Shown: positions 1,800-16,592 of the stretch, piece after piece | Layout of the letters: every line of letters starts with the position of its first letter | Position numbering within the stretch: position 1 is the first letter of the stretch | Source of the DNA: a bacterium | GTDB lineage: Bacteria > CSSED10-310 > JAJRTK01 | DNA length: 16,673 bases | Direction: 5' to 3' | Assembly: GCA_024278345.1 (NCBI GenBank) | Contig: JAJRTK010000409.1 | Span: 1-16,673, forward strand | Translations under genes and position numbers: made by a program | Notes under the pieces: generated by a model | Databases searched by the model: none | Told to the model about the DNA's origin: nothing | The model's input: only the letters and a program-made list of their open reading frames with translations

Positions 1800-1828
1800 T
1801 TGACTTTATGCGCGAGTTCTACTATTAA
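1800..1828 (+). promoter_or_regulatory. Sigma70-type promoter of the blaI-M56 pair
   Basis: TTGACT (1800-1805) and TATTAA (1823-1828) are separated by exactly 17 nt, a near-consensus vegetative promoter. Transcription would start near 1835, giving a leader of about 36 nt before the GTG at 1871. The -10 box lies inside the proposed BlaI operator, which fits autorepression. Confidence 0.7.
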
Positions 1829-1838
1829 GGGTCGTAGA
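1822..1838. promoter_or_regulatory. Proposed BlaI-type operator, copy 1 (autoregulatory)
   Basis: TACTATTAAGGGTCGTA (within 1820-1836 to 1838, counting the flanking bases) is an imperfect dyad with outer TAC/GTA arms. It matches the perfect dyad upstream of the efflux operon at most positions: with one flanking base on each side, 14 of 19 bases agree without a gap. It overlaps the -10 hexamer, as expected for a repressor that blocks its own promoter. The functional role is inferred. Confidence 0.55.
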
Positions 1839-1870
1839 TTGTTGCTGGTTCTTGCAAAAGGAGTCCTGGC

Positions 1871-2296
1871 GTGAGGGGCATTCGAATTCGACCGGAGTAT
1901 GCCGGGGTCCGATCCTCGCTCTTCGACCTTGAGGCGGATATCATGGAAATCGTTTGGTCCCTGGGTTGGGCGGAGTTCTCCGTTGGTGCTGTTCATAAGA
2001 AGTTGGAGGCGAACCGCGATATCGCCTATACGACCGTGATGACGACCGTTGGGAGGCTTTTCGGGAAGGGATTGCTGGAGCGGCGCCGAGACGGGCGGCG
2101 ATACCTCTACACGCCGGTGATGGGGAAGGACCAGTTTCTTCGCGCCATGGCACGCGATGTGTTGGGAAGCCTGTTGAAGACCGGCGAGCATCAGATGGAG
2201 GCCTTGCTCATGGAGGAAGTCGCAGAGGCGGACAGCGATGAGCTCGACCGGCTGGAGGCCATGATTCGAGCACGGCGCAAGGAGCTGCAGGGGTGA
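1871..2296 (+). CDS. BlaI/MecI/CopY-family transcriptional repressor
   Basis: A 141-aa winged-helix repressor. The family core is clear: [10 protein letters not shown] near the start, then the recognition helix region [19 protein letters not shown] (about 53-71) and the wing [13 protein letters not shown] helical dimerisation tail ends in [13 protein letters not shown]. Family members bind short dyads as dimers and are released by proteolysis in the tail (BlaI, MecI) or by metal (CopY). No CopY-type CxC metal site is present, so release by the adjacent protease is more likely. GTG start at 1871 with AAGGAG just upstream; the next gene overlaps by 4 nt. Likely target: its own promoter and that of the efflux operon. 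Confidence 0.9.
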
Positions 2297-3312
2297 GCGA
2301 AATCCTGTCATCTCTCTTGAAAGTCGTGGTGGTGTTCGGGCTTGGCATTCCGCTGGCCACTCTTGTGGCAAAGGTCAGTCTGGCGCTCCGATGGCGATCC
2401 GATTCCCATCCGCTCCGCCACGGATCGCTCTCGTCCTTTCTCTTGGTTGTCGGGCCGAGCCTTGCCACTGTCTTGTGGTTCGTTTCCGCGGCGATTCACC
2501 GGGCGGAACCGGGCGAGGGCGCCGGCGTGTGTGCCATCAGCCATACCGGAATTGGCACTTGCATCGATTCACTATTGCTGGCTCTTATACTTTCCACGGT
2601 CCTGGCCACGGCATTGACCAGCCGTTGGAGACTTTCGCGGAGCGGTTCCCATGGTGTCGTGCCCGCAATCTATTTTCGACGGCTGGCGCGGCTGTGTCGC
2701 CGCCATGGGAAGCTAGACGTGCTCAGCGGGCGGGTGAAGGCTGTTGGGGACTCACAGAGCCACCCGATTTGCGTCCGTGGTTTTTTTCGGCCCATGGTTG
2801 AGGTCAGCACTCTTTTGATGGATCGTCTGGACGATGCCGCGCTGGAAGCAGCTTTGTTGCACGAGGTCGCGCACGTGCAGGGGTATGACCCTTTGCGTTA
2901 CCTTCTTGGCTCCTTGGCTTTGGCATTGAATCCAATGGGTTTTTTGCTGCGCCCCGAGCTTCGGCGTTGGCGGGCGGCTCGAGAGGCGGTTTGTGATTTC
3001 GAGGCCGTGGGGCGATCGGCGGATCCGCTCTCCCTGGCCGAGGCTTTGGTTACCGTTTCCCGGATCAGCCGCCCGTTACCGGACTTCTCCGCGGGTCTCG
3101 GAGGGGCCGCCTTGAAATTGTTGCAGCTACGAATTCATTTGCTTCTTGGCTACGCTTCAAACCCACGTCATGCGGTTCGCACTCCGGTTCGTTGGCGGTT
3201 TCTCTGGATCGTTTTCGCCCTGATTCTCTCTCCCCATTGGTTGGGTGTGTGGCCCTTGGATGGCCTCCACGAGGGTGTCGAAAAATTCCTGTCCACGTTC
3301 GGCTTGATTTAA
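2293..3312 (+). CDS. M56-family (BlaR1/MecR1-like) membrane metalloprotease, sensor-less
   Basis: A 339-aa integral membrane zinc protease. Predicted helices are at about 9-31, 46-67, 92-110 and 302-314. The cytoplasmic domain between the last two has HEVAH (190-194) and the downstream acidic motif [12 protein letters not shown] (Glu231/Asp236 region), which probably supplies the third zinc ligand. BlaR1 and MecR1 are near 600 aa with a C-terminal penicillin-binding domain; here only about 25 residues follow the last helix. By BlaR1 topology the loop 68-91 is outside and holds C80, H84 and C90. GTG at 2293 overlaps the repressor stop (GTGA), with AAGGAG at 2279-2284, so the two are translationally coupled. 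Likely role: cleave or inactivate the neighbouring BlaI-type repressor on a signal. Confidence 0.88.
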
Positions 3313-3374
3313 CAGAGAGGCGCTCGGAGACCGGCCCCGGTTTCCAGTCAAGCCAACCGCTGTCAATGGCAGAT

Positions 3375-3403
3375 TTGTCAACTCCGAAGGAGAAACTTAA
3401 AAA
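3375..3403 (+). promoter_or_regulatory. Candidate promoter of the metal efflux operon
   Basis: TTGTCA (3375-3380), a 17-nt spacer, and TAAAAA (3398-3403) make a plausible vegetative promoter. Transcription would begin near 3410, placing the 17-bp dyad at about +8 to +24. An alternative is a -10 inside the dyad (TATCAA, 3421-3426), as in the blaI promoter, but its -35 would be poor. Confidence 0.5.
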
Positions 3404-3417
3404 GATGCACCATAATC

Positions 3418-3434
3418 TACTATCAATGATAGTA
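3418..3434. promoter_or_regulatory. Proposed BlaI-type operator, copy 2 (efflux operon)
   Basis: TACTATCAATGATAGTA is a perfect dyad: 8-bp arms TACTATCA/TGATAGTA around one central A. It lies in the 157-nt gap between the M56 gene and the efflux operon and resembles the KACTACA-NN-TGTAGTM pattern of known BlaI operators. The related copy in the blaI promoter supports the same repressor binding both. The dyad is seen; the binding is inferred. Confidence 0.65.
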
Positions 3435-3481
3435 ACCCGGCGTTTGTTTGTTCCACGGTCTCTGGCGCAGTGAGGGGGAAG

Positions 3482-4948
3482 ATGAAGAGCAGACTTTTTC
3501 CTCGGCGACCCATTGTCCCGCTTTGCGTGGATACCCGCCAGAAGAGTTCTCGATCTAAAATTGTTTGTGGAAGTCCTTTGTTCAGGTTCATACCGTTGCT
3601 TGTCCTTCTTGTCCCGGCCACCGGTTGTTCGGGTGTCCCGCGGTTGACCAGCTCTCAGGCTTCGGTGGGTTCAAGCCTCTTCGAGCCCCCGCCAGGGCGG
3701 GTCAAGCTGTTCGTTCCAGATGTAGATCAGCCCGATCCCTCTGCGGTCTCCGCCGTGACTTTGGAGCAACTTCTGGCGTACGCCGATGAGCATGCACCGG
3801 CTCTCGGGGTGGCTCGTGCCCGTTCTCGTCGGGGTGACGCGGGGATCGAGGCGGCTTCGCTGCTCTTGCAGAACAATCCTCAAATGGGTCTTGGCGTTGG
3901 AGGCCGCGCGGTTGCGTCGAGCAATTTCTTTGAGAGTGAGCTCTCCGTTCAACAGCAGATCGAGATTGCTGGTGAACGAGGCTTGCGTATCCAGACGGCG
4001 GAGCAGGGTCGCGAGGTTGCCCTCGCCGAGCTGGACGAAGTCCGGTGGCAAGTCCACGTGAATGTCCATGGTCTCTTTTTTGAAGCTCTCATCGCAGAAG
4101 AGCGCGTTGGAGTGGCGAAGGGGGTCGTTGGGTTTGCCGAAGACCTTCGATTGGTGGCACAACGGCGCGTTGACGCTGGCGATGACGCGCCCCTGGCGAT
4201 GCTTGTCGCCCGGGCGGATCTGGCCCAGGCCAAGGAGCGTCTTGTTGCGGCGGATCAGGAGGAGAGGCTTGTGCGTTTGGCTTTGGCCGAAGCGGCGGGC
4301 TGGCCGGCAACGAATGCCCCGATGCCTCATGGTGCCTTGCCGACCATCCGAATCACCCGGGTTCTTCCGGATTTGATTCGCCTGGCAGGGCAACATCATC
4401 CGGCGCTCCGCACCCTGGAGTTCGCGGTTGGGGAGGCGGAGTCCCGAGTTCGGCTCCAGGATCGGGAAGCCTGGCCCGAGCCGACGTTGGGCTTCGGGTA
4501 CGGGCGGGAAGGAGACGCCTCGGATCCGCCCAACGTTTGGCTGTTCACGGTTGGCATTCCCATTCCGCTCTGGAACCGAAATCAGGGTCAACGGGCCCAA
4601 GCTTCCGTTGCCCTTGGCACCGCCCGTGCCGAGCGGGAGAGTCTTGGCCTGCGTTTACAGGCCCGGATCGCCCGGGCCGCCAGTGCGGTCAACGCCGCGG
4701 CGGAGCGAGTTCGCATCTATGGAGCGGATGTCGTACCGGCCGTCATGAGCAATCTCAGACTCATTCGCCGGGCATACGAATTGGGCGAGCTTGATATCCA
4801 CGCTGTTTCGCAGACAAGGGAACGAGTGCTGGAGACCCAAGGTCGTGCCATTGATGCTCGCAGTGAGTATTTTCGCGCGCTTGCCGAGTTGGAGGCATTG
4901 GTGGGAGCCGAGCTGGACGATTCAGCCCTAAAGGAGACGAGGCCATGA
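3482..4948 (+). CDS. CzcC/CusC-like outer-membrane channel of heavy-metal RND efflux (TolC family)
   Basis: About 488 aa; forms the outer-membrane exit duct of a tripartite metal pump. The ATG at 3482 is preferred over the upstream GTG at 3470 because GAGGGGGAAG directly precedes it. The N-terminus has an unusually long polar stretch, then a hydrophobic segment ending in LLVPATGCSG, a probable lipobox with Cys49. The rest is two outer-membrane efflux repeats of long amphipathic helices, with family phrases such as SVQQQIEIAGERGLRIQTA, GIPIPLWNRNQGQRAQA and LRLIRRAYELGELDI. It overlaps the adaptor gene by 4 nt (ATGA). It is the first gene of the operon and sits just downstream of the proposed operator. 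Confidence 0.92.
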   Translation: MKSRLFPRRPIVPLCVDTRQKSSRSKIVCGSPLFRFIPLLVLLVPATGCSGVPRLTSSQASVGSSLFEPPPGRVKLFVPDVDQPDPSAVSAVTLEQLLAYADEHAPALGVARARSRRGDAGIEAASLLLQNNPQMGLGVGGRAVASSNFFESELSVQQQIEIAGERGLRIQTAEQGREVALAELDEVRWQVHVNVHGLFFEALIAEERVGVAKGVVGFAEDLRLVAQRRVDAGDDAPLAMLVARADLAQAKERLVAADQEERLVRLALAEAAGWPATNAPMPHGALPTIRITRVLPDLIRLAGQHHPALRTLEFAVGEAESRVRLQDREAWPEPTLGFGYGREGDASDPPNVWLFTVGIPIPLWNRNQGQRAQASVALGTARAERESLGLRLQARIARAASAVNAAAERVRIYGADVVPAVMSNLRLIRRAYELGELDIHAVSQTRERVLETQGRAIDARSEYFRALAELEALVGAELDDSALKETRP

Positions 4949-6132
4949 AGCCATTGGAATCAATTATCGCAGGCTGGACGCGATTTACCGGATGGTGTCT
5001 TTTCACCGCCCTGCTTTTTTTGCAGCTCGCGGCGAGTACAGGCTGCAAAGAGCTTGCTTCACTTCCAGCCAGGCAGATGGAACTTGAGGCTCCGAGCCTC
5101 GAAGAGGTTGTGCAGCTTTCGGACGAGGCGATGGCGCGGAACAACATTCAGCTTGCCAAGGTTACAAAGGAGCTTCTCCACGATTCTATCGAGGTTCCCG
5201 CCGAAGTTCGACTCAATCCCGATCGCGTTGCCCACGTGGCGCCCCTCGTGGCTGGGCAGCTCCAGAAGGTGCTGGTCTCCGTCGGTGACACGGTCAAGAA
5301 AGGGCAGAAACTGGCGGTGCTCAGGAGCGTGGATCTGGGGCAAGCTCGGGCCGAGTATCGGCGGTCGAAAGCGATGCTACAGGCGGCTCAGGCCAATTTT
5401 GCGCGCCAGGAACGTCTGAGAACGGAAGGGATTTCCTCGGAGAGATCGTTTCTCGAAGCCCAGCTCCGGCTGGCGGAGGCGGAGGCGGACTGGGATGCCG
5501 GCCAGGCGCGGTTATTGGTTTTCGGGCCCAGCGGAGGCAGTGGCCCGGACATGCCGATTAAGGCGCCTATTGCAGGGACGGTGGTGAAGCGGCATGCCAC
5601 GCAGGGGGAGAATGTCAGTCCCTCGGATACTCTTTTCATGATTGCTGATACATCGAAGGTCTGGGTCATCGGTCACGTGTATGAAGAAGAGATGTCGAAG
5701 ATCCACACGGATGCCAAGATTACTTTGGGATTACAGGCCTATCCTGAGCTCTCGTGGGAGGGGAAGCTCGCTTTCGTGGCGCCAATCGTGGAGGAAACGA
5801 CAAGGACCCTCGGCGTTCGTGCCGAATTGGACAATGAAGATGGGGTTTTGCGACCGGGGCTGTTCGGACATTTGAGGATTTCGGTGAGCGAGGCGGAACC
5901 GGTCGTCGCAATCCCTTTGGCCGCTTCGCAGACATTGCGTGGCGCCACGGTGGTTTTCGTGCCGTCGGGCAAGCCGAACAGCTTTCGAGCAAAGAAAGTC
6001 GTGCTGGGCCGGCGCAGTGGCTATCGAGTCGAGATTCGTGAAGGGCTTGAGGTCGGAAACCAGATTGTGATTTCTGGGGCTTTTCTGCTCAAATCCCAGC
6101 TCATGGCTGGCGAGTTCGGCGAAGAGGAGTAG
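4945..6132 (+). CDS. CzcB/CusB-like periplasmic adaptor (membrane fusion protein)
   Basis: A 395-aa adaptor linking the inner-membrane pump to the outer-membrane channel. The N-terminus has a hydrophobic segment ending in LAASTGC (Cys34), a possible but atypical lipobox with Ser at -3. Two lipoyl half-motifs occur at about 95-130 (VAPLVAGQLQKVLVSVGDTV) and 203-235 (MPIKAPIAGTVVKRHATQGE). They flank a short alpha-hairpin (130-192). A beta-barrel and a membrane-proximal domain follow (TSKVWVIGHVYEEEM; LRPGLFGHLRI). There is no His-rich N-terminal metal-binding stretch and no CusB-type Met cluster. ATG at 4945 has AAGGAG at 4931-4936. The pump gene starts 2 nt after the stop. Confidence 0.93.
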   Translation: MKPLESIIAGWTRFTGWCLFTALLFLQLAASTGCKELASLPARQMELEAPSLEEVVQLSDEAMARNNIQLAKVTKELLHDSIEVPAEVRLNPDRVAHVAPLVAGQLQKVLVSVGDTVKKGQKLAVLRSVDLGQARAEYRRSKAMLQAAQANFARQERLRTEGISSERSFLEAQLRLAEAEADWDAGQARLLVFGPSGGSGPDMPIKAPIAGTVVKRHATQGENVSPSDTLFMIADTSKVWVIGHVYEEEMSKIHTDAKITLGLQAYPELSWEGKLAFVAPIVEETTRTLGVRAELDNEDGVLRPGLFGHLRISVSEAEPVVAIPLAASQTLRGATVVFVPSGKPNSFRAKKVVLGRRSGYRVEIREGLEVGNQIVISGAFLLKSQLMAGEFGEEE

Positions 6133-6134
6133 CC

Positions 6135-9100
6135 ATGATTGAGAGATTCGTCGAAACTGCTCTCCGCCAGCGTTTTCTGGTGGGAATCTTTGGCCTCGTG
6201 TTGGTGGCCTATGGGGTCTACGTCACTCTGGGCCTCCCGGTAGCAGCCTTTCCAGACGTGACGAACGTTCAGGTTACTGTCAATACCGAGGCCCCGGGCT
6301 TGAGTGCCACAGATGTGGAGCAGCTCATCACTTTTCCAGTGGAAACCTCGATGATGGGTCTTCCCGGAGTGATCCAGGTACGGTCCATCTCCAAGTTCGC
6401 GCTTTCCGTCGTGACGGTAGTCTTCCAGGACGGTGTCGATATCTACTTCGCCAGGCAGCTCGTTTTCCAGCGCTTGGCTCAGGCCCGTGAGAGGATTCCC
6501 GGAGGGTTGGGGACCCCGCAGATGGGGCCTATCACTACGGGCTTGGGGCAAATCTACCAGTACACCATTGAGGGAGAAGGGCGTTCCGCCATGGAGCTGA
6601 GGACCCTGAACGACTGGATTGTCAAATACCAGCTTCGCGGTGTCTCGGGGGTTGCCGATGTGCTCTCTTTCGGCGGCGAGGTACGACAATACCAGGTTCA
6701 GGTCGATCCTGATCGCCTGCTTCGTTACGGCATGACGCTGGACGATGTGTCAGCGGCCATCGCTGTCAATAATCTCAACGTCGGGGGACAGTACCTCGTG
6801 GGTGAGTCCGAACAGCTCGTTGTGCGCGGCGTCGGCCTCATTCGCGGGCAGCGTGAGGGCCTCGAGGATGTCGCGAACATCGTCATACGGAGTGAGGATG
6901 GCACGCCCATCCGTGTCAGGGACGTAGCGAAGGTTGAATATGGGGCCGAGGTCCGGCAGGGCGCGGTATCCAAGAACGGGCGCGGCGAGGTCGTCAGTGG
7001 TATCGTATTGCAGCTCCAGGGAGCCAATACTCGGGATGTCATCCGTCGGGTACGGATCCGGCTCAAGGAGATCCAGTCGTCGCTGCCCCAAGGCGTCCGA
7101 ATTGTACCCTACTACGACCAGGGGGATCTGACAGACAAGGCCGTCAAGACCGTGACCGACGCCTTGCTCGAGAGCGCTGTGCTCATTGTTGTCATGCTCT
7201 TTTTGTTCCTGGGCAACTTTCGCGCTGCCTTGGTGGTTGTTGCCTCCATTCCCCTCTCCTTGCTGGTGGCGTTCATCATGATGGATCGCGTGGGGCTCGA
7301 TGCGAATCTGATGTCGCTTGGTGGCCTTGCCATCGGAATCGGAATGATGGTTGATGGGTCTATCGTGATGGTGGAGAACATCTTCCGCGTTCTTGCAGAA
7401 CGAAGCGATGATGATCGGCTGAGCGCGGTCGGTCGGGCGGCTCACGAAGTTGCTCGTCCAGTTTTCTTCGCGGTGCTCATCATCGTGGCGGTTTTTCTTC
7501 CGCTTTTTACCTTGCAGGGCGTTGAGGGTAAACTGTTTGGGCCATTGGCATTTACCACCAGCTTTGCCATGATCGGGTCCCTCATTACGGCTCTGGCCAT
7601 TGTTCCTTCCCTGACCACGGTGCTTCTCACGGGAAAACTGAAGGAGGAAGAGCCCGTTTTCGTCCGGATCCTCAAGCGGATCTATCGGCCCATTTTGGCC
7701 TGGGTGCTTTCCTACCGAAAAACGACTTTGTTGGGGGCGGTTGCTCTCCTTGTGTCGGCGCTGGCGACCAGTCCGTTTCTTGGGACGGAGTTCGTGCCAG
7801 AGCTCGAGGAGGGCACCATGACGATTCGCGTTACGATGTTGCCCACCGTGTCCCTCCCCCAAGCGTTGGAGATCGGTCAGCGGTTGGAGAAGCGTTTGCT
7901 AGAGTATCCTGAAGTGACCTATGCGCTTTCCAGGATTGGGCGTGCTGAGCTCGGCGGCGATCCCGAGTCCGTGAGCAACAACGAGATCTACGTGGGCATA
8001 CAGTCTCCCGAGGAATACAAATGGGTGACCGCACCCAGCCGGCTGGCTCTTGCCGAGCGCATGGCCGAAGATCTCGGGAAGGAGTATCCCGGTGTCCTCT
8101 TCAACTTCAGCCAACCCATCGCAACCCGTGTCGATGAACTCTTGAGCGGCGTCAAGGCGCAGATTGCCATCAAGATATTTGGGGATGATTTGGGCACACT
8201 CGCGGATTTGGGTCGGCGGATCGAAGCCGTAATCCGAGGCGTTCCAGGTGCCGCCGATGTTCAGCTCGAGCAGATTGAAGGTGAAGCCCAACTTGTTGTG
8301 CGCGCCGATCGAAATGCCATGGCGCGCTATGGAGTCAACGTTTCCGATGTCATGAGTGTGGTGCAGAATGGAGTTGGCGGGGTGACGGCCAGCGAGGTGC
8401 TGGAGGGCAATCGCCGATTTGGCATCTACGTGCGGGTGGAAAAGTCACAGCGACTTGACGCGGAAGCCATTTCGAAGCTCTTGGTTCCCGGGGGGGGAAA
8501 TGCCCGTATTCCCCTCTCTCAGGTGGCACACATCCAGGCGGAGGAAGCCCCTCCTCAGGTGAGTCACGAGCAGGGGCAACGGCGCGTGGTCGTCCAGTGT
8601 AACGTTCGTGGCCGTGACATGGGCGGCTTTGTCGCTGATGCCCGCCGTGAAATCTCACGGCGGGTTGCCATGCCGGCAGGTTATCATACCGAGTGGGGCG
8701 GGCAGTTCGAGAACCAACAACGAGCCCAGCGCACCCTGGTCATTGTCGTCCCGGTCTCGATGTTGCTCATCCTGCTCTTGCTCTACCTGTCGTTCAACAC
8801 CGTAAGACACTCGCTCCTAGTGATTTCCAATGTCCCGTTTGCCGTCATTGGCGGCATTTTTGCCCTGGCGGCCACGGGGCAGTATCTGAGCGTCCCCTCC
8901 GCGGTGGGGTTCATCGCCGTGTTCGGTGTAGCGGTTTTGAACGGGGTCGTGCTTGTGGCTTGCATCAACGGGCATTACCGTGAGGGAATGGATGCCCCAT
9001 CAGCCGCCGCGTTGGGCGCCATGCAGCGTCTGCGGCCAGTCCTCATGACGGCGTCGGTGGCAATGTTGGGGCTTATTCCACTGCTGGTGTCATCGGGGAT

Positions 9101-9233
9101 AGGCTCCGAGGTACAGCGCCCACTTGCCACGGTCGTCGTGGGGGGCGTGCTCACGTCAACACCGATGACACTTCTCGTATTGCCGGTGCTCTACACGATG
9201 TTCGTGAGGCGCCGCAGGGAGGTTGAAATATGA
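6135..9233 (+). CDS. CzcA/CusA-family heavy-metal RND efflux pump
   Basis: A 1032-aa inner-membrane proton/cation antiporter of normal HME-RND length. It has the twofold layout: TM1 at about 13-31, a first periplasmic domain, TM2-6 and a linker, then a repeat of the same. In TM4, AIGIGMMVDGSIVMVEN (399-415) keeps the relay Asp407 and Glu414 but has Gly401 where CzcA has Asp402. CusA also lacks that Asp, yet by my alignment the second and third CusA substrate methionines are replaced here by Asn615 and Glu668 (RVDELLSGVK). The metal class is therefore uncertain; a divalent cation is somewhat likelier. ATG follows GAAGAGGAG. The PII-like gene overlaps its stop (ATGA). Confidence 0.95.
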   Translation: MIERFVETALRQRFLVGIFGLVLVAYGVYVTLGLPVAAFPDVTNVQVTVNTEAPGLSATDVEQLITFPVETSMMGLPGVIQVRSISKFALSVVTVVFQDGVDIYFARQLVFQRLAQARERIPGGLGTPQMGPITTGLGQIYQYTIEGEGRSAMELRTLNDWIVKYQLRGVSGVADVLSFGGEVRQYQVQVDPDRLLRYGMTLDDVSAAIAVNNLNVGGQYLVGESEQLVVRGVGLIRGQREGLEDVANIVIRSEDGTPIRVRDVAKVEYGAEVRQGAVSKNGRGEVVSGIVLQLQGANTRDVIRRVRIRLKEIQSSLPQGVRIVPYYDQGDLTDKAVKTVTDALLESAVLIVVMLFLFLGNFRAALVVVASIPLSLLVAFIMMDRVGLDANLMSLGGLAIGIGMMVDGSIVMVENIFRVLAERSDDDRLSAVGRAAHEVARPVFFAVLIIVAVFLPLFTLQGVEGKLFGPLAFTTSFAMIGSLITALAIVPSLTTVLLTGKLKEEEPVFVRILKRIYRPILAWVLSYRKTTLLGAVALLVSALATSPFLGTEFVPELEEGTMTIRVTMLPTVSLPQALEIGQRLEKRLLEYPEVTYALSRIGRAELGGDPESVSNNEIYVGIQSPEEYKWVTAPSRLALAERMAEDLGKEYPGVLFNFSQPIATRVDELLSGVKAQIAIKIFGDDLGTLADLGRRIEAVIRGVPGAADVQLEQIEGEAQLVVRADRNAMARYGVNVSDVMSVVQNGVGGVTASEVLEGNRRFGIYVRVEKSQRLDAEAISKLLVPGGGNARIPLSQVAHIQAEEAPPQVSHEQGQRRVVVQCNVRGRDMGGFVADARREISRRVAMPAGYHTEWGGQFENQQRAQRTLVIVVPVSMLLILLLLYLSFNTVRHSLLVISNVPFAVIGGIFALAATGQYLSVPSAVGFIAVFGVAVLNGVVLVACINGHYREGMDAPSAAALGAMQRLRPVLMTASVAMLGLIPLLVSSGIGSEVQRPLATVVVGGVLTSTPMTLLVLPVLYTMFVRRRREVEI

Positions 9234-9583
9234 GTGGTAGGATCAAGGAGATCAAGGCGATTGTGCAACCCTTCATGCTCGAACATGTTTTGGATGCCCT
9301 TGCCTCTATCGAGGGGCTTCCAGGGGTTACGATTTCGCAGGTGCTAGGATGGGGGACGAGCCGTGCCAGTGGCGAGGCGAAACGGATTCGTGAGGCAGGG
9401 CACGCTTTTGCCCCCAAGACCAAAGTAGAGATCGTGGTTCGGGCGGAGATGGCCCAGCGGGTCGTGGAGGCGATCATGGGGGCGGCGCACACGGGCAATC
9501 CAGGCGATGGCAAGGTCTTTGTCACGGACCTCGTGGATGCCGCTAAGATTCGCACGGGGCTGCGCGGCGTCGCGGCGATTTGA
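9230..9583 (+). CDS. PII-like signalling protein linked to metal efflux
   Basis: A 117-aa PII-superfamily protein. The beta-alpha-beta core (IKEIKAIVQPFMLEHVLDAL; PKTKVEIVV) is clear. The nucleotide-binding B-loop TGNPGDGKVFV (about 88-98) and the C-terminal KIRTG (107-110, canonical RIRTG) suggest ATP/ADP binding. The T-loop (about 41-61) does not resemble GlnB: the uridylylated Tyr51 motif and the Gln39 ligand for 2-oxoglutarate are absent, so a nitrogen role is doubtful. PII proteins of a divergent group are known next to RND metal pumps. ATG at 9230 overlaps the pump stop, with AGGGAGG at 9216-9222, so it is translationally coupled. A likely role is gating or regulating the pump, but this is inferred. 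Confidence 0.88.
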   Translation: MSGRIKEIKAIVQPFMLEHVLDALASIEGLPGVTISQVLGWGTSRASGEAKRIREAGHAFAPKTKVEIVVRAEMAQRVVEAIMGAAHTGNPGDGKVFVTDLVDAAKIRTGLRGVAAI

Positions 9584-9602: not shown

Positions 9603-10553
9603 ATGGGGCACGATCACGAACACGGTTCGGCAGCGCAGGCCCAACGTGGCGGATCGCGCTATAAGAAGCGCCTCCTTTGGTCCTTTGCCATTGTCGGGGG
9701 ATATTTTGTCGTGGAGCTGGTGGGAGGGCTCCTGACGAACTCGCTGGCATTGTTGTCCGATGCCGGCCACATGTTCACCGATGTTCTTGGCCTGGGCATG
9801 GCCGCGGCGGCCATCCATGCCGCGGAGCGGTCGAAAAGAGATGGGCAACACACCTTCGGCATGTACCGCTTGGAGGTTCTCGCAGCGCTGGCCAACGCAG
9901 TTTTGTTATTTGGTGTTGCCCTCTACATCCTGTACGAGGCGGTCCAGCGGATCAGTGAGCCACAGGATGTGATGAGCTTGCCGATGCTCGTCGTCGCGGT
10001 CATCGGCCTCTTGGTGAACATCGGCGTGTTCCTGCTCTTGCGGGAAGGGGCGAAAGAGAGCATCAATGTCGAAGGTGCGTACCTGGAGGTATTGGCCGAT
10101 CTTTTCGGCTCCGTCGGGGTGATTGTGGCGGCGGTTGTCATGGAGGTGACGGAATTCACCCTTGTGGACCCGATTTTTGGAGTTGCCATCGGGCTCATGG
10201 TTCTGCCGCGCACGTGGAGATTGGGCAAGAAGGCGTTGCGTATTCTGATGCAGGCCGCGCCGCCGTCGGTTGCTCTCGAGGATATTGAGGAGGCGCTGGG
10301 AACCATCGTCGGCGTGGACGAGGTTCACGATTTGCACGTTTGGACTCTCACCTCGGGGATGGAGGTTGCCACCGTTCATCTACGGGTGGCCGACAGATTG
10401 AGGATGCCCGAGGCGCTGGCGGAGGCCCGTGAGATGCTTTCTCACCGTTTTTCCGTGGATCATGCCACCGTCCAGGTCGAGCTATCGGGCGGGGCCGTTT
10501 GTGAATCCTTTTGTGAGCGGGAGGGGCACCCATCCGATCCCACGAAAGCCTAA
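9603..10553 (+). CDS. Cation diffusion facilitator (CzcD/ZitB-like) transporter
   Basis: About 316 aa; exports divalent cations from cytoplasm to periplasm, where an RND pump can take them on. The ATG at 9603 follows GGAAGGGG (9586-9593) and begins MGHDHEHG, a short His-rich tail typical of the family; the frame is open further upstream but overlaps the PII-like gene. Six helices fit. TM2 has the metal site HMFTD (His56, Asp60). TM5 reads EVLAD (Glu162, Asp166), where HxxxD is usual. The C-terminal cytoplasmic domain is present (VHDLHVWTLTSGMEVATVHL, about 241-260). Last gene of the efflux operon; no terminator seen after it. Confidence 0.93.
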   Translation: MGHDHEHGSAAQAQRGGSRYKKRLLWSFAIVGGYFVVELVGGLLTNSLALLSDAGHMFTDVLGLGMAAAAIHAAERSKRDGQHTFGMYRLEVLAALANAVLLFGVALYILYEAVQRISEPQDVMSLPMLVVAVIGLLVNIGVFLLLREGAKESINVEGAYLEVLADLFGSVGVIVAAVVMEVTEFTLVDPIFGVAIGLMVLPRTWRLGKKALRILMQAAPPSVALEDIEEALGTIVGVDEVHDLHVWTLTSGMEVATVHLRVADRLRMPEALAEAREMLSHRFSVDHATVQVELSGGAVCESFCEREGHPSDPTKA

Positions 10554-10649: not shown

Positions 10650-10829
10650 TCTTACCTCTCCTTCGCATTGCTCCTTGGTCTGCTAGCCAACGCCGCAGCC
10701 GGCTGGTGGTGGGCCGATCCGGTTGCGGCGCTGCTCATGGTCCCATGGCTCCTGAAAGAGGCACACGAGGGATTGAGAGGCTATGGGTGTTCCCACGACT
10801 ATGCACCTCTGGAAACGACACCTATCTAG
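10650..10829 (+). pseudogene. C-terminal relic of a CDF-type cation transporter
   Basis: One frame reads 59 residues beginning SYLSFALLLGLLANAAAGWW, followed by WADPVAALLMVPWLLKEAHE, and ends at TAG 10827-10829. The GWWWADPVAAL-MVP-KE pattern is the last membrane helix region of small (about 200-aa) CDF-type transporters. A stop (TAG 10647-10649) lies directly upstream in frame. No frame of 10554-10649 encodes recognisable earlier parts of such a protein, and there is no start with a ribosome site. The rest of the gene is deleted or degraded. Its end overlaps the stop of the convergent VIT/VWA gene. Confidence 0.7.
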
Positions 10830-13315
10830 TTTCGCAGGAGCTCAGCCACATTGACGGCCGGTGCCCGGCCTGCCAGCCAGCGCCGGGCTTTCGCCGCCGC
10901 AGGCGCCCACTCGTCGGAGCGATTTCCGGCCTCATGTTCCAGGAGTGCTAGCACCACCGCCGTGGCAATTAGCGCCTCACCCTGCGCTGCGCAGGCCGCC
11001 TTGACGACCGCTGCCCGAACTCCCAGCCAGCGCTCTAGCTCGGGGCTCCAGCCGAAGCTGCCGTCAGCCCTCTGGCTCATCAATAGCTCAAAAAGAGCAT
11101 CGACTCCCCTGGTCATCCCTTCCGTTAGGCCGCCCAGTTCAGTCAGGCCCAGTTCAGCCACGTCCAGTTCAGCCACGTCCAGGTCGGCCAGGTCCAGTTC
11201 AGCCACGTCCAGGTCGATTGTGTTCGAGTAGGGCGGATCCGAGGAGAAGTCGATAGAGGCGTTGGCCCGGGATTCGTCCCCTGCCCGCTTCTTGAACAGC
11301 CTCCCCAGCAGGCCGTCGGAATGGCCGCTTGCCGGCCCTTTTTTGAGGCTTGGTGGCGCCGGTGCGGGAGAAGCAGTCCGAAGCCTTGTTGGAGAATCTC
11401 CGAGACTCCGCCGCAAGAAAGCCGGGATCTCAAGGAGGGGATGCCTGGCCACTGCGCCCACCATACGGGGAGCAGACGGCACGACCATGCCGATGTGGCT
11501 ACTTCCCGCGGAGAACCCGATACCTCCCATGCCGCCCCAACCCACGGTCAAGGCGATGGGTATCTTGCGCAGCTCTGCCTGCTCCAGGGTTTTTTCTTCA
11601 GCACTCCTTTCTTCCACCGCAACATAGCTGGTGGCACTGGACATCAGGCCGTAACCAGTGCCCAGCTCCACGATCCTCTGCCGGGTTCGATCTTCTTTCG
11701 ACTTTCGCCGTTGTTGGCTACCTCGGGCCGATCCCCCTGTCTCTTCCAGATGGCGGATCATCTCCCTGGCCCAAAGGATGGGAACCGGTCCGCCTTTTTC
11801 CGCGGATTCGATCTCCAGGGGAAGTTGCCAGGAACGATGGTCCGCCCGGAGGGTGACTTCTCTTGGCGAACCTCTCTGAATACGGGCATACAAAGTTACA
11901 GTATCGCCGTCGAACACGGGCGGACAGTCTGGGGGCGCTTGCTCCACCTTGAGATCGCTCCAGTGGACCGTGACCTCCTTGTACGTGGGAGATCCCACTC
12001 GGGCGAACATTCGGAGCACCTTGGGCTCAATCCTTTCCCCGGGGAAGATGAACTCCGACGCGCCTTTCGTGGCTCTGGCGACTCCGCGGACCAGATATTC
12101 GCTGCATCCTGCTCCAATACCAAAGGAGAAGATTCGGCATTGCTCCGAATGTTGGCGGCAAAGTGCGATGACACTCTCTTCGTTGGAGACCTCTCCGTCC
12201 GTAAGGAGAAGGAGTTGCCGCGCCCTCTCCGGATCTGGAGATTTTTTCAGGAGAGCCTTGAGGGGGCTCAAGATTTCGGTTCCACCCAAATTCGCGCTCA
12301 CCTGGCGGAGGTATTTCGACGCCTTGTCCAGGGTCTTCTGGCTGTAGGGCTTGGGCCTCTTCCAAAGGGACTGCCAGGAACTGCCGAACAGCGTGATGTT
12401 GAAGCTGTCGCCTTCGGAGAGGGCCCGCAGACAGAGGGCCAAGGCCTTTTTCGCCTGCTCCATGGAATCTCCGCCCATGGAGCCGGAACAATCGAGGAGG
12501 AACAACACTTCTTTTCCTTGACGCTGGGCGCCGCCGTGGTCGGGGTAGAAACTCACCATGGCGATCCGGGTCCCGTCTTCCTCCTGAGCCACCCGAACGT
12601 GAGGCTGGTGGGGCTCCTTGGGCTCCAAAAGCAGCACGAAATCCCGATCCAGTGCCACCGATTCCGAAGAAATCTCCACTTTGGCCCGATTCTCTTCGAG
12701 CATCGTCACCTTGAGCGGATGGCTGGGGCTGTCGATAGAGCGCAGAGGAGAATCCGACTCGATTTCAAGGCGCAGCGTCAGACCATATGGTACCTTGAAC
12801 GCAACCGGCGGGTTGACCCGATGGCCATCCGGTTCCCCCACTTCGGGAGGGCCAGCCGGAACATATCTCGGGGAAACTGTCGTGGGGATCTGGAATCGCA
12901 GTGCCTTTCCCTCATGGCGGAGCTGGGCAACGTAGGTGATGGCGATTTCCACCCTTTCGCCGGGCCGGAGATTTCCCACGGACGCCGTGAAAATATTGGG
13001 CCTCTCCTGATCCAACAAAAACGCACCGTCTCCCTCGGTGAGAGCATCGTCATAGATTTCAAACGCCTTCTCCTTTTCTTCTACCCGGCCGCGGATCAAT
13101 CGATCCCCGACTCTTGCCTCGAAACCACAGACAGCCGAGCCCTCTTCCATGGGGAACACGTAGACCGCCTCCACCGGAATCGACTCCTTGTTCTGGTAGC
13201 GCTGTGTCACGGTCACTTTGGAGCAAGCTCCAGAAAGCTTGGCCTCCAAGAGAACACCTTCCAGGGGAACTTGCCCGGAGGCTGTCAACAGACCAGTTTT
13301 CGGCGAGTCATTCAT
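10826..13315 (-). CDS. VIT and von Willebrand factor A domain protein
   Basis: About 829 aa, no signal peptide, so probably cytoplasmic. The ATG at 13315 (MNDSPKTG) is chosen because AAAGGA precedes it; the frame is open further upstream but runs into the MerR-type gene. Domain order: VIT domain (about 5-135); VWA domain (about 266-430) with MIDAS residues in DCSGSM (Asp275, Ser277, Ser279), GGTE (Thr346) and LTDGE (Asp373); a linker with the family phrase YGLMSSATSYVAVEE; a 15-bp-encoded pentapeptide repeat (about 703-727); and a C-terminal helical part (DGSFGWSPELERWLG). The function of bacterial VIT/VWA proteins is largely unknown; the MIDAS suggests metal-dependent protein binding. Co-transcribed with a MerR-type gene 14 nt upstream. 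Confidence 0.9.
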   Translation of the reverse strand: MNDSPKTGLLTASGQVPLEGVLLEAKLSGACSKVTVTQRYQNKESIPVEAVYVFPMEEGSAVCGFEARVGDRLIRGRVEEKEKAFEIYDDALTEGDGAFLLDQERPNIFTASVGNLRPGERVEIAITYVAQLRHEGKALRFQIPTTVSPRYVPAGPPEVGEPDGHRVNPPVAFKVPYGLTLRLEIESDSPLRSIDSPSHPLKVTMLEENRAKVEISSESVALDRDFVLLLEPKEPHQPHVRVAQEEDGTRIAMVSFYPDHGGAQRQGKEVLFLLDCSGSMGGDSMEQAKKALALCLRALSEGDSFNITLFGSSWQSLWKRPKPYSQKTLDKASKYLRQVSANLGGTEILSPLKALLKKSPDPERARQLLLLTDGEVSNEESVIALCRQHSEQCRIFSFGIGAGCSEYLVRGVARATKGASEFIFPGERIEPKVLRMFARVGSPTYKEVTVHWSDLKVEQAPPDCPPVFDGDTVTLYARIQRGSPREVTLRADHRSWQLPLEIESAEKGGPVPILWAREMIRHLEETGGSARGSQQRRKSKEDRTRQRIVELGTGYGLMSSATSYVAVEERSAEEKTLEQAELRKIPIALTVGWGGMGGIGFSAGSSHIGMVVPSAPRMVGAVARHPLLEIPAFLRRSLGDSPTRLRTASPAPAPPSLKKGPASGHSDGLLGRLFKKRAGDESRANASIDFSSDPPYSNTIDLDVAELDLADLDVAELDVAELGLTELGGLTEGMTRGVDALFELLMSQRADGSFGWSPELERWLGVRAAVVKAACAAQGEALIATAVVLALLEHEAGNRSDEWAPAAAKARRWLAGRAPAVNVAELLRN
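11135..11217 (-). repeat. 15-bp tandem repeat (minisatellite) inside the VIT/VWA gene
   Basis: Five consecutive 15-bp units (11135-11209) plus a partial sixth. On the plus strand three units are identical (CAGTTCAGCCACGTC) and the others differ at a few positions. Read on the minus strand they encode a pentapeptide of type DVAEL, so unit changes keep the frame. Copy number may vary between strains. Confidence 0.85.
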
Positions 13316-13329
13316 GACTTTGTCCTTTC

Positions 13330-13779
13330 TTATTCCAGTAAAGAGCGAACGGCCTCCCGGATTCGGTGGAGCTTCGACGGGTCGAGGGAAAAAGGCGGTT
13401 GCCGAAGGTGGAGCTCCACCCCATCGCCCAAGCGAATTCGCGTCCAAACGGTCCTGGGAAAGAAGGCCGGAGGAGACCATTTTTCCGGCGAAGGGGGCGG
13501 GCCTATGTGAGGCACGGAAATCCGTAAGGGCTCTTCACCTTCTTCTTTAAGATTGTTCAGGAATTGGCCAATGGCGTCCAGGGACATCCCTGCCCGCTGA
13601 CATTCCCGGACCCGGATCAACTGCTCCAAGTGGCTTTTTGTGTAGTGCTTTCCACGTCCCATCCCAAGGGGCGGCGGGAGTAAGCCTCTCTGCACATAGT
13701 ACCGGACTGTTCGCCGGTTGACCCCTCCGAGCTCTGCCAGATCGCCGATGGAATAATTGTCCTGAGCCTGTTGCTTCAT
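13330..13779 (-). CDS. MerR-family transcriptional regulator
   Basis: 149 aa. The N-terminal MerR winged helix is clear: YSIGDLAELGGVNRRTVRYY (9-28) followed by VQRGLLPPP and a GRGKHYTKSHLEQL wing. The dimerisation helix is short (LDAIGQFLNNLKEE). The C-terminal part (about 95-149: VWTRIRLGDGVELHLRQ) is a small domain, not the metal-binding tail of MerR, ZntR or CueR; only one cysteine (Cys60) is present, so metal sensing is unlikely. The stop at 13330 is 14 nt before the VIT/VWA start, so they form an operon. A dyad around its own promoter suggests autoregulation. The effector is unknown. Confidence 0.85.
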   Translation of the reverse strand: MKQQAQDNYSIGDLAELGGVNRRTVRYYVQRGLLPPPLGMGRGKHYTKSHLEQLIRVRECQRAGMSLDAIGQFLNNLKEEGEEPLRISVPHIGPPPSPEKWSPPAFFPRTVWTRIRLGDGVELHLRQPPFSLDPSKLHRIREAVRSLLE

Positions 13780-14719: not shown

Positions 14720-15027
14720 GCTGACTCTCCTGGTAGTGGGTCTTTCTTTTTGCTTTGGGGTCCGCTCACATCGGTCGCCGTCCGGCGCCCGCTGCTCGCC
14801 CGGTTTGCCGCAACCTCCAGCTTTTGCAGTGAAATGAGGTCAGTGGCCGAATCTGCCTGGTTGGCCCATTTTCCTTCTTCTTTGTTTGAAGATCCCCGTG
14901 GGAGTGACGAGGGGCGACTGGCGCCCGCCGGAGGGCGGGCGACGGGAGCGGAACTCAAGAAGGAGAAGAAAATCCTGAAAGGTGAAAACGACTCGGACCT
15001 ATTTGAGTTAGATTTGTGCTCGGTCAC
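14716..15027 (-). CDS. Doubtful 103-aa ORF bridging two genes
   Basis: This frame fills the 304-nt gap (14720-15023) between the barrel and LolA-like genes. Its GTG start overlaps the upstream stop (GTGA), and its stop overlaps the downstream GTG start (GTGA). That is typical of operon genes. Against it: no ribosome site is visible, the product is Ser/Pro/Lys-rich with no hydrophobic core, signal peptide or recognisable domain, and it contains a strong GC hairpin (14922-14941). It may simply be an untranslated spacer. Confidence 0.2.
   Translation of the reverse strand: MTEHKSNSNRSESFSPFRIFFSFLSSAPVARPPAGASRPSSLPRGSSNKEEGKWANQADSATDLISLQKLEVAANRASSGRRTATDVSGPQSKKKDPLPGESA
14922..14941. repeat. 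GC-rich hairpin between the barrel and LolA-like genes
   Basis: CGCCCGCC (14922-14929) and GGCGGGCG (14934-14941) form a perfect 8-bp stem with loop GGAG. No T-run follows on either strand, so it is not an ordinary terminator. It could stabilise or partly stop the message between the two genes. Confidence 0.6.
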
Positions 15028-16592
15028 CAGTAATAAGTCAGCTCCAACATCCCGAGGTCGAGAGCCTGGAAGTCCGCGAGAATCGAGCCTTTGCGGCCCC
15101 CGATGGAGAGAGCCATGGCCCGGAGTTTCCAGGAATCGGTAAACCGGTAGGTGGCGGCAAGTTGCCCCACGTAGGCGGAGCGGTCGATATTGAACTGTCC
15201 CGATGCTTCGAGCTCGATACGGTCCCCGTCCTTATTGATTCGGAGAAGACCCGTGACACTGGTTTCCCGTTCATCGTAGATAAGAGGCTGCACGATGTCG
15301 AAGATCCGTTGTTGGATGATCTGGGCAGACAGATAGAAATCGAAATCTCCAACAGAGGGTGGTGGGTAGTCAATGCCCAAAAGGAAGGTGGCGGAATCGT
15401 TTTCCGAAACCAATTCCGGAAGGATGACTTCCCAGATGCCGTTTTCATAGACATATTCGGTGCCAGGGGTCCCCATGAGATCGTTGAGCTGGTCCGTAGA
15501 AAGATCCTCCACGCCACTCCAATTGTAGCGGCGGCCTTTAAGGAAGGCAGCTTCGCCCCGGACGACCACCGGGCCCAACGTGGAGGTGAAGTCTGTCCCT
15601 ATTTGCCAGATGGGCGGGTGGCGGGCCGTGATATCGATCCTGGCTTTTGCATCCAGGAGGTCGAGGAGCGTGGGGTTTTGCGGGAGTCCGTCCAGAAAGA
15701 AATGGGGCCTTGGCGAATAGATTGGCTGGCGGTCGTAGCCGAAAAACATGTAGAGCTGAGAGTCGAAGGGGCCAAAGGTTGCCGCGGCCCGAAATCCCAA
15801 TTCCGAGCGGCTTAGGGTAGGCTTGGGCAGTTCTTCGTCGAGGAACTGGATTTTCGTGGGAATGGGGAATCCCAGGATCTTTACCGTCGGTTCCACAAGA
15901 AGCGTTGGCGGGAAGAAGGGATCGTCCGCCTTGGGGTAGACATCGGGCCGGAAGCGGGGGATGAAGACGAATTCGACGGTCCCGGATTGTCCGTAGTAGC
16001 TGGCTCGGACCATGAAATTGCCGATTTTGCGGTTCAGCTCGTCGTCCAAGATGAAAAGGGAATAGTCCTGGGGATTGAGAATGTCGTTGGGTACGATGCC
16101 GTCGCCGCGACCCCAGGCGAGCTTCTGGATTCCGGCGCTGAGATCCCAGCGGCTGGATGAGTATTGAAAGTAGAGCTCATCGACACCGTAGCGGCCGAAG
16201 AGAGAGAAGCGAGAGATACCGTCGTCGAAGCGGAAGGAAGGATCGAGCTTGAGCTTGAAGGCGAGGCCCTTGGGAGATGTGAATTCATGGCCGATTTCGG
16301 CGACGGCGATGGTCTCGGTAAGGAGGCTCTCTTTCAAGACGAAGCCATAGGCTGCCCGCGTGGTGATGGATCCAGAAACTTCCATGGCGTGGCCGGCGGG
16401 AATCCGGGCAAAAAGAGAGAGAATAAACGTCAGTGCCATCACAAGTAGGGAGAGATGCCTTGACGGTGCTGGAATCGAGCCTTGTACCGCGGATTCCCGC
16501 GGGGCGGTCTGGGATCCACCCACCGTCACGATGGGGTATCCACGCAAGGCGGGACAAAGATTGGAAATAAAAGGAAAACGCGCAGCGCACAA
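15024..16592 (-). CDS. Outer-membrane beta-barrel protein, DUF1302-like
   Basis: Up to 522 aa. Residues about 43-69 hold a signal peptide whose hydrophobic core runs LSLLVMALTFILSLFA and ends PAGHA. The mature part is made of alternating strands. It carries the hallmark of the DUF1302 group, WDLSAGIQKLAWGRGDGIVP and DILNPQDYSLFILDDE (about 149-186), and ends in the aromatic ELTYYW typical of outer-membrane barrels. The start is uncertain: the frame opens at TTG 16592, GTG codons lie at 16529 and 16523, and ATG at 16439 would leave a signal peptide without positive charge; none has a clear ribosome site. The substrate is unknown. It is upstream of the LolA-like gene on the same strand. Confidence 0.82.
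   Translation of the reverse strand: MCAARFPFISNLCPALRGYPIVTVGGSQTAPRESAVQGSIPAPSRHLSLLVMALTFILSLFARIPAGHAMEVSGSITTRAAYGFVLKESLLTETIAVAEIGHEFTSPKGLAFKLKLDPSFRFDDGISRFSLFGRYGVDELYFQYSSSRWDLSAGIQKLAWGRGDGIVPNDILNPQDYSLFILDDELNRKIGNFMVRASYYGQSGTVEFVFIPRFRPDVYPKADDPFFPPTLLVEPTVKILGFPIPTKIQFLDEELPKPTLSRSELGFRAAATFGPFDSQLYMFFGYDRQPIYSPRPHFFLDGLPQNPTLLDLLDAKARIDITARHPPIWQIGTDFTSTLGPVVVRGEAAFLKGRRYNWSGVEDLSTDQLNDLMGTPGTEYVYENGIWEVILPELVSENDSATFLLGIDYPPPSVGDFDFYLSAQIIQQRIFDIVQPLIYDERETSVTGLLRINKDGDRIELEASGQFNIDRSAYVGQLAATYRFTDSWKLRAMALSIGGRKGSILADFQALDLGMLELTYYW

Follow-up and report, generated by a model that had tools for sequence, protein, structure and literature searches.

The 16,673-nt stretch of DNA analysed here, referred to below as the window, carries a BlaI-family repressor gene and an M56 membrane protease gene whose products very probably control the adjoining czcCBA heavy-metal efflux genes, with BlaI very likely acting at two related dyads, one at its own promoter and the other at the front of the pump genes. 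The favoured reading, to which a probability of about 0.7 is assigned, is a self-contained, metal-responsive operon run by proteolytic signalling of the BlaI/BlaR1 type. BlaI/M56 repressor-protease pairs are best known from beta-lactam (penicillin) resistance. The preliminary description of this DNA had proposed that the pair controls the efflux operon through a shared dyad, and the proposal is supported by the conservation of the sites and by their confinement to the locus, the binding of the repressor being predicted from both. The features concerned are the following.

224-1768, + strand: guaA
1800-1828, + strand: probable blaI-M56 promoter, TTGACT (1800-1805), 17 bp, TATTAA (1823-1828); from sequence, below the strict-scan threshold
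1819-1837, no strand assigned: predicted operator O1, CTACTATTAAGGGTCGTAG, overlapping the -10
1871-2296, + strand: blaI, BlaI/MecI/CopY-family repressor of 141 aa (PF03965, E 3.2e-26)
2293-3312, + strand: M56 family membrane metalloprotease, BlaR1-like module without a penicillin-binding sensor domain (PF05569, E 1e-5, below cut-off)
2497-2562, + strand: M56 codons 69-90, predicted periplasmic loop at the BlaR1 EL1 position, with near-invariant H69, E72, C80, H84 and C90 in the alignments
2860-2874, + strand: HEVAH protease motif of M56 (H190-H194)
3235-3282, + strand: M56 codons 315-330, predicted periplasmic C-terminal tail, H326 invariant, H315 and E330 near-invariant
3405-3473, + strand: putative 22-codon ORF running through O2, from sequence and frame analysis
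3417-3435, no strand assigned: predicted operator O2, CTACTATCAATGATAGTAA, at the M56-czcC junction, from dyad sequence and conservation
3470-4948, + strand: czcC, TolC-like outer-membrane efflux protein, start GTG 3470 or ATG 3482 (PF02321, E 8e-35)
4945-6132, + strand: czcB, periplasmic adaptor (PF16576, E 5e-49; TIGR01730 above its cut-off)
6135-9233, + strand: czcA, CusA/CzcA family RND metal pump (TIGR00914, 1127.6 bits, cut-off 701.45)
9230-9583, + strand: PII-like protein (PF00543, E 2.6e-21), overlapping the czcA stop
9603-10553, + strand: CDF cation efflux transporter, ZitB-like, probable start ATG 9603 in an ORF that opens at 9507 (PF01545, E 2.4e-48; TIGR01297 above its cut-off)

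The M56 gene begins 4 nt inside the end of blaI, and since the neighbouring genes overlap or abut throughout, the stretch from blaI to the CDF gene can be a single transcription unit, with the exception of the M56-czcC junction of 93-170 nt. The pump is assigned to the CusA/CzcA heavy-metal RND class by its TIGR00914 score and by the adjacent CzcB and CzcC; its TM4 motif, AIGIGMMVDGSIVMVEN, which replaces the DFG...D form of CzcA, only hints at the class of metal transported, and the CDF and PII-like genes next to it point to a divalent cation, for example zinc. A PII-like gene also follows czcA in another locus, L187. Beyond the CDF gene, a VIT and VWA domain protein is encoded on the - strand (10829-13480), whose residues around 800 form an acidic, repetitive Leu-Asp stretch (LDVAELDLADLDVAELDVAELGLTELGG), and the protein at 15027-16592 matched no Pfam family. 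The domain search of the main window genes found no beta-lactamase or penicillin-binding protein domain, as the preliminary description had said, and strict sigma-70 and terminator scans returned nothing in the window.

The repressor matches PF03965 (Penicillinase_R) over residues 19-133 with 92.4 bits (cut-off 22.6), and its profile, compared with the PDB, finds 2g9w, followed by MecI and BlaI; 2g9w, M. tuberculosis BlaI (Rv1846c), is thus the closest solved structure by sequence profile. The M. tuberculosis BlaI regulon, a subject of Sala et al. in 2009, is reportedly not a metal RND operon. Kinship with the copper repressors CopY and TcrY, which share the DNA-binding family and have metal export as their target, raises the alternative that BlaI itself senses the metal, as CopY of lactococci and enterococci does, with M56 only tuning its turnover. 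CopY is indeed a metal-sensing member of this family, and the window BlaI scores 60 bits against the CopY equivalog TIGR02698; the cut-off, however, is 121.95 bits, and whereas CopY and TcrY bind metal through their own C-terminal cysteines and have no protease partner, the BlaI of the window contains no cysteine, no C-terminal cysteine motif is conserved in its aligned relatives, M56 is always adjacent, and the conserved cysteines and histidines are those of M56. Direct sensing was rejected on the lack of cysteine and is considered quite unlikely.

The dyads themselves are well defined. The perfect dyad claimed in the preliminary description exists: TACTATCAATGATAGTA occupies 3418-3434 of the + strand as an 8+1+8 palindrome, with no other occurrence in the window at up to 3 mismatches and none in 200 dinucleotide shuffles. 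A related copy had been reported at the -10 of the repressor's promoter, and it is found there, O1 (CTACTATTAAGGGTCGTAG) sharing 14 of 19 bases with O2 (CTACTATCAATGATAGTAA) and overlapping the TATTAA. The 6.06-Mb genome of the window has a single BlaI-family gene, and CTACTAT-N6-TMGTAR is matched without error in it by O1 and O2 alone. Another region of this genome (L092, contig C164:20000-30755) contains a second CzcB-CzcA operon with a 13/14 operator match, CTACTATCGATGATAATAG, at its front (contig positions 29125-29143), beside an NtrC-type regulator gene; this site could be a third target of the same BlaI, a possibility to be taken only as a lead because one-mismatch sites arise by chance at that level (control 6-10). 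A site at C199 and a one-mismatch site at C96, both in the window genome, have no apparent tie to metal genes.

Conservation was assessed in two sets of loci. Eight genomes of the window's own phylum yielded no relative of its BlaI outside the window genome, and Myxococcota were for that reason used for comparison. The first set comprised 21 further database loci with BlaI-M56 and Czc genes, found with the BlaI protein and belonging mostly to Myxococcota and other former Deltaproteobacteria, together with one Binatota MAG, one Bdellovibrionales MAG and one locus labelled Alphaproteobacteria. With a site counted as present at 11 or more of 14 matches, the first site was found in 21/21 of these loci and the second in 20/21 (22/22 and 21/22 with the window). 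The held-out set, 36 loci from a separate Myxococcota genome sample, a few of them sister copies from genomes already used, gave 30/36 and 27/36, where the frequency of sites elsewhere in the same loci predicts 0.18 and 0.22, and the explanation of the dyads as chance occurrences was rejected on this test, with about 0.2 expected for each. A lack of dyad conservation at orthologous loci, which the preliminary description had named as a ground for refutation, was looked for in this way and not seen. The gene order BlaI-M56-CzcCBA recurs in the 21 further loci and in nearly all held-out Myxococcota loci, and a CusA/CzcA heavy-metal pump is the partner in nearly every locus.

The sites are also confined to this context. 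In the genomes of 20 relatives (about 138 Mb), exact CTACTAT-N6-TAGTAR matches number 24 distinct sites, all 24 within a blaI-M56-czcCBA locus, compared with 2 matches for the reversed control pattern; this confinement argues that the O1/O2 system is a dedicated two-site circuit. A Planctomycetota locus (L079) carries both CTACTAT sites, O2 is missing from L009, and CTACTAT-type sites are absent from L185, L195, L204 and L209, in part because their operator differs. In L204, from Myxococcota, the dyad CACCGATTGACAATCGGTG lies 60 nt upstream of blaI and is more like the plasmid-type operator described below than like CTACTAT.

A search of plasmids with tblastn found the arrangement BlaI-M56-TolC-adaptor-CusA/CzcA, in some cases followed by HupE, in Shewanella, Pseudoalteromonas, Glaciecola and one IncC-type Salmonella plasmid. 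The CTACTAT dyad is absent from these Alteromonadales-type plasmid loci; another dyad, AAACCGAT-N5-ATCGGTTT (AAACCGATN5ATCGGTTT), is located at -65 or -69 of blaI (L210, L211, L212 and L213), and a second copy follows the start of tolC by exactly 33 nt in 4/4 loci examined. The presence of a different recognition sequence in both of these positions is good evidence that the two-site layout itself is functional. A third, weaker copy is present 125 nt before tolC in L210 and L212; for the plasmid loci, strict scans for sigma-70 promoters and for terminators were uninformative.

The layout agrees with that of BlaI-BlaR1 and MecI-MecR1 of staphylococci and Bacillus licheniformis, in which a winged-helix repressor gene stands beside the gene of an M56 membrane gluzincin and a dyad operator occurs both at the pair's own promoter and at the target genes. 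It differs from them in its target, here a heavy-metal RND pump, and in the second operator, which is usually inside the first pump gene. The sites themselves resemble the experimentally derived motif of Clostridium thermocellum BlaI_0696, an inverted repeat of GTCTAT with 5 nt between the arms, in having the same spacing when read as TACTAT-N5 and in sharing the inner CTAT; BlaI_0696 and BlaI_1845, with half-sites GTCTAT and GACTAT, govern a small, autoregulated regulon, the gel shifts (EMSA) used single repeats of the motif, and the system, which includes no metal pump, has been read as a beta-lactam response (PMC8457756). A dyad with this BlaI spacing is conserved at blaI's own promoter in the loci compared, and BlaI is predicted to bind it.

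The two sites are not equivalent in their surroundings. A TTGACA-like -35 element occurs at a few fixed offsets before O1 in 31/47 related loci (6/47 in a control stretch), compared with 3/45 before O2 (5 in the control stretch), a difference between the sites with a Fisher probability of 1.4e-9; the strict consensus scan does not list the O1 promoter of the window. O2 lies within the czcC reading frame in 35/47 loci, always in the same phase and at a median of 34 nt past the start codon, and in this set of 47 the czcC start follows the M56 stop by a median of 11 nt. The preliminary description had placed the perfect dyad upstream of the Czc operon, which is correct for the window, where O2 is found 105 nt past the M56 stop and before the first usable czcC start, but does not extend to most relatives, in which the dyad falls within the 5' end of czcC. 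The codons that spell O2 are otherwise rare: at O2, 32/35 Thr codons are ACT and 34/35 Ser codons are AGT, whereas over the remainder of czcC the fractions are 44/707 and 34/851, respectively. Retention through rare codons indicates that O2 is kept by DNA-level selection inside a gene, and an explanation at the protein level was rejected on this codon test.

The in-gene position, the lack of a promoter signature, the rare-codon retention and RNA folding no better than shuffles favour a function of O2 mainly as a roadblock or read-through gate rather than as a promoter-operator, a proposal that we hold with even confidence for and against. In the window, where O2 lies before czcC, the roadblock geometry is less clear. 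The main alternative, a tentative one with a real but smaller chance, is that O2 is an ordinary promoter-operator, the czcCBA promoter lying within the end of M56 or immediately ahead of it, so that BlaI would repress two promoters. The 93 nt that separate the M56 stop from ATG 3405 in the window leave room for this, a weak TTGTCA-17-TAAAAA at 3375-3403, which could be a separate promoter, would start transcription just before O2, and the sigma-70 consensus may not hold for promoters in these phyla. Against it stand the -35 counts given above, the location of O2 in coding sequence in most loci and the short M56-czcC distance; at O2 of L210, of L212 and of the window the strict scan finds no promoter, a weak point since it also missed promoters at O1, and the one promoter that it does find in L213 lies 39 nt downstream of the O2 start. 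A third reading takes the dyad in czcC for an RNA element, an attenuator or a ribosome-site hairpin, in place of a DNA operator. The dyad can form a 7-bp hairpin in the transcripts of the window and L007, but predicted folding is no better than that of shuffles in 5/5 sequences (z -0.4 to 1.5) and the same dyad is also present at O1, in a promoter, which makes this reading scarcely credible.

The 22-codon ORF across O2 has a good ribosome site (AAGGAG), is out of frame with czcC and overlaps GTG 3470 at its end. In relatives, czcC begins about where this ORF sits; a real leader, a shifted start or frameshift, and an assembly error are possible accounts of it.

The PF05569 match of the M56 protein (E 1e-5) reaches 25.1 bits, below the Pfam cut-off of 31, and the M56 profile matched no PDB chain by sequence; a fold search did, the predicted model (pLDDT 85) having Staphylococcus aureus BlaR1 (8exq) as its best match, with a Z of 13.7 over 240 residues. 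Membership in the M56/BlaR1 gluzincins is indicated, in spite of the Pfam score below cut-off, by the HEXXH and E-xxx-D motifs and the BlaR1 fold: H190, E191, H194 and the third ligand E231 are invariant in 20/20 aligned relatives, and E231 and D235, which form the E-xxx-D, are likewise invariant in these 20. The penicillin-binding sensor domain of BlaR1 and MecR1 is absent, the protein of 339 aa ending after one C-terminal helix and the Pfam search giving no such domain, and conserved Cys, His and Glu residues in a loop and in the tail distinguish it further from them. The loop sits between model helices 46-71 and 87-116 (helices 2 and 3), residues 76-86 having pLDDT <50, and both loop and tail would be on the outer side if the topology follows BlaR1. 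BlaR1 signals through its EL1 loop (PMC9834060).

A sensor pattern, defined as at least three Cys/His in the loop together with H326 and E/D330, is found in 59/60 M56 proteins linked to RND genes and in 2/17 others (Fisher 6e-13), or in 42/43 and 1/15 once the proteins are dereplicated at 60% identity, the unlinked control set being mostly actinobacterial, so that ancestry is a confounder of the comparison; H326 and E/D330 alone are present in 59/60 and 3/17, respectively. The two unlinked exceptions, L024 and L035, come from the actinobacterial set. Three checked members of that set (L024, L027 and L034) adjoin MacB/FtsX-type transporter genes, with an FtrD-like gene also next to L024 and L027, and their M56 proteins have Cys pairs in the loop; the three systems may represent a variant of the switch that serves metal uptake. 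The loop patterns vary, from H-x2-E/C/H/C to C-x3-H-x-H-C, DHC-x2-HDHH-x-HLC and, in the plasmids, HWHH, and they shift in step with the TM4 motif found in the partner pump. Given these patterns, the loop and tail of M56 are a probable site of metal sensing. The homology to BlaI/BlaR1 and the best fold match would also agree with sensing of beta-lactams or cell-wall damage, as in BlaR1/MecR1, the metal pump then being a bystander or exporting a cell-wall-active compound; nevertheless, this is judged very unlikely, as the protein lacks the penicillin-binding domain, the main window genes include no bla or PBP domain, a CusA/CzcA pump accompanies the pair in nearly every locus, and conserved Cys/His take the place of the sensor.

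In the preferred reading, that of a metal-responsive proteolytic switch, a BlaI dimer would bind the two dyads, of the form CTACTAT-N5-ATAGTAG, covering the -10 of the blaI-M56 promoter at O1 and thus limiting its own expression, and barring RNA polymerase from the pump genes at O2, at the front of czcC. This would allow low-level synthesis of repressor and protease while keeping czcCBA and the PII-like and CDF genes off. Excess periplasmic metal, bound by H69, E72, C80, H84, C90, H315, H326 and E330 of M56, would activate the cytosolic HEVAH centre, and cleavage of BlaI would then free O1 and O2, giving more sensor and much more pump, until export of the metal lowers the signal. Such a circuit would have in common with the CzcRS/CusRS control of CzcCBA/CusCBA the induction of an RND pump by periplasmic metal sensing; those systems consist of a histidine kinase and an activator, whereas a protease and a cleavable repressor are proposed here.

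A full-text literature search returned no description of a BlaI/M56 pair controlling a metal RND pump, the hits that were checked being incidental; this is weak evidence of novelty in view of its thin coverage of subscription journals; as far as seen, the parts are known, and the use of BlaI/M56 for metal efflux, the exchange of the sensor and the in-gene operator have not been described. The wider proposal could as readily hold as fail: widespread BlaR1-like proteases may serve as periplasmic metal receptors, with a metal site formed by loop and tail, a ligand pattern that tracks the transporter and an in-gene roadblock operator, in several phyla and on conjugative plasmids and with two operator sequences that are unrelated. 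Annotation often lists BlaI/M56 pairs as regulators of beta-lactam resistance, and dozens of them are here tied to metal efflux; the presence of such pairs in a genome should not be scored as beta-lactam resistance. In Shewanella, where a version is carried on a plasmid, the system is accessible to genetics. If the reading is right, it offers a testable case of an operator kept within coding sequence, it shows how the EL1 loop of BlaR1 could have served as a sensor without the penicillin-binding domain, and proteolytic repressor cleavage would join the known modes of periplasmic metal sensing in bacteria.
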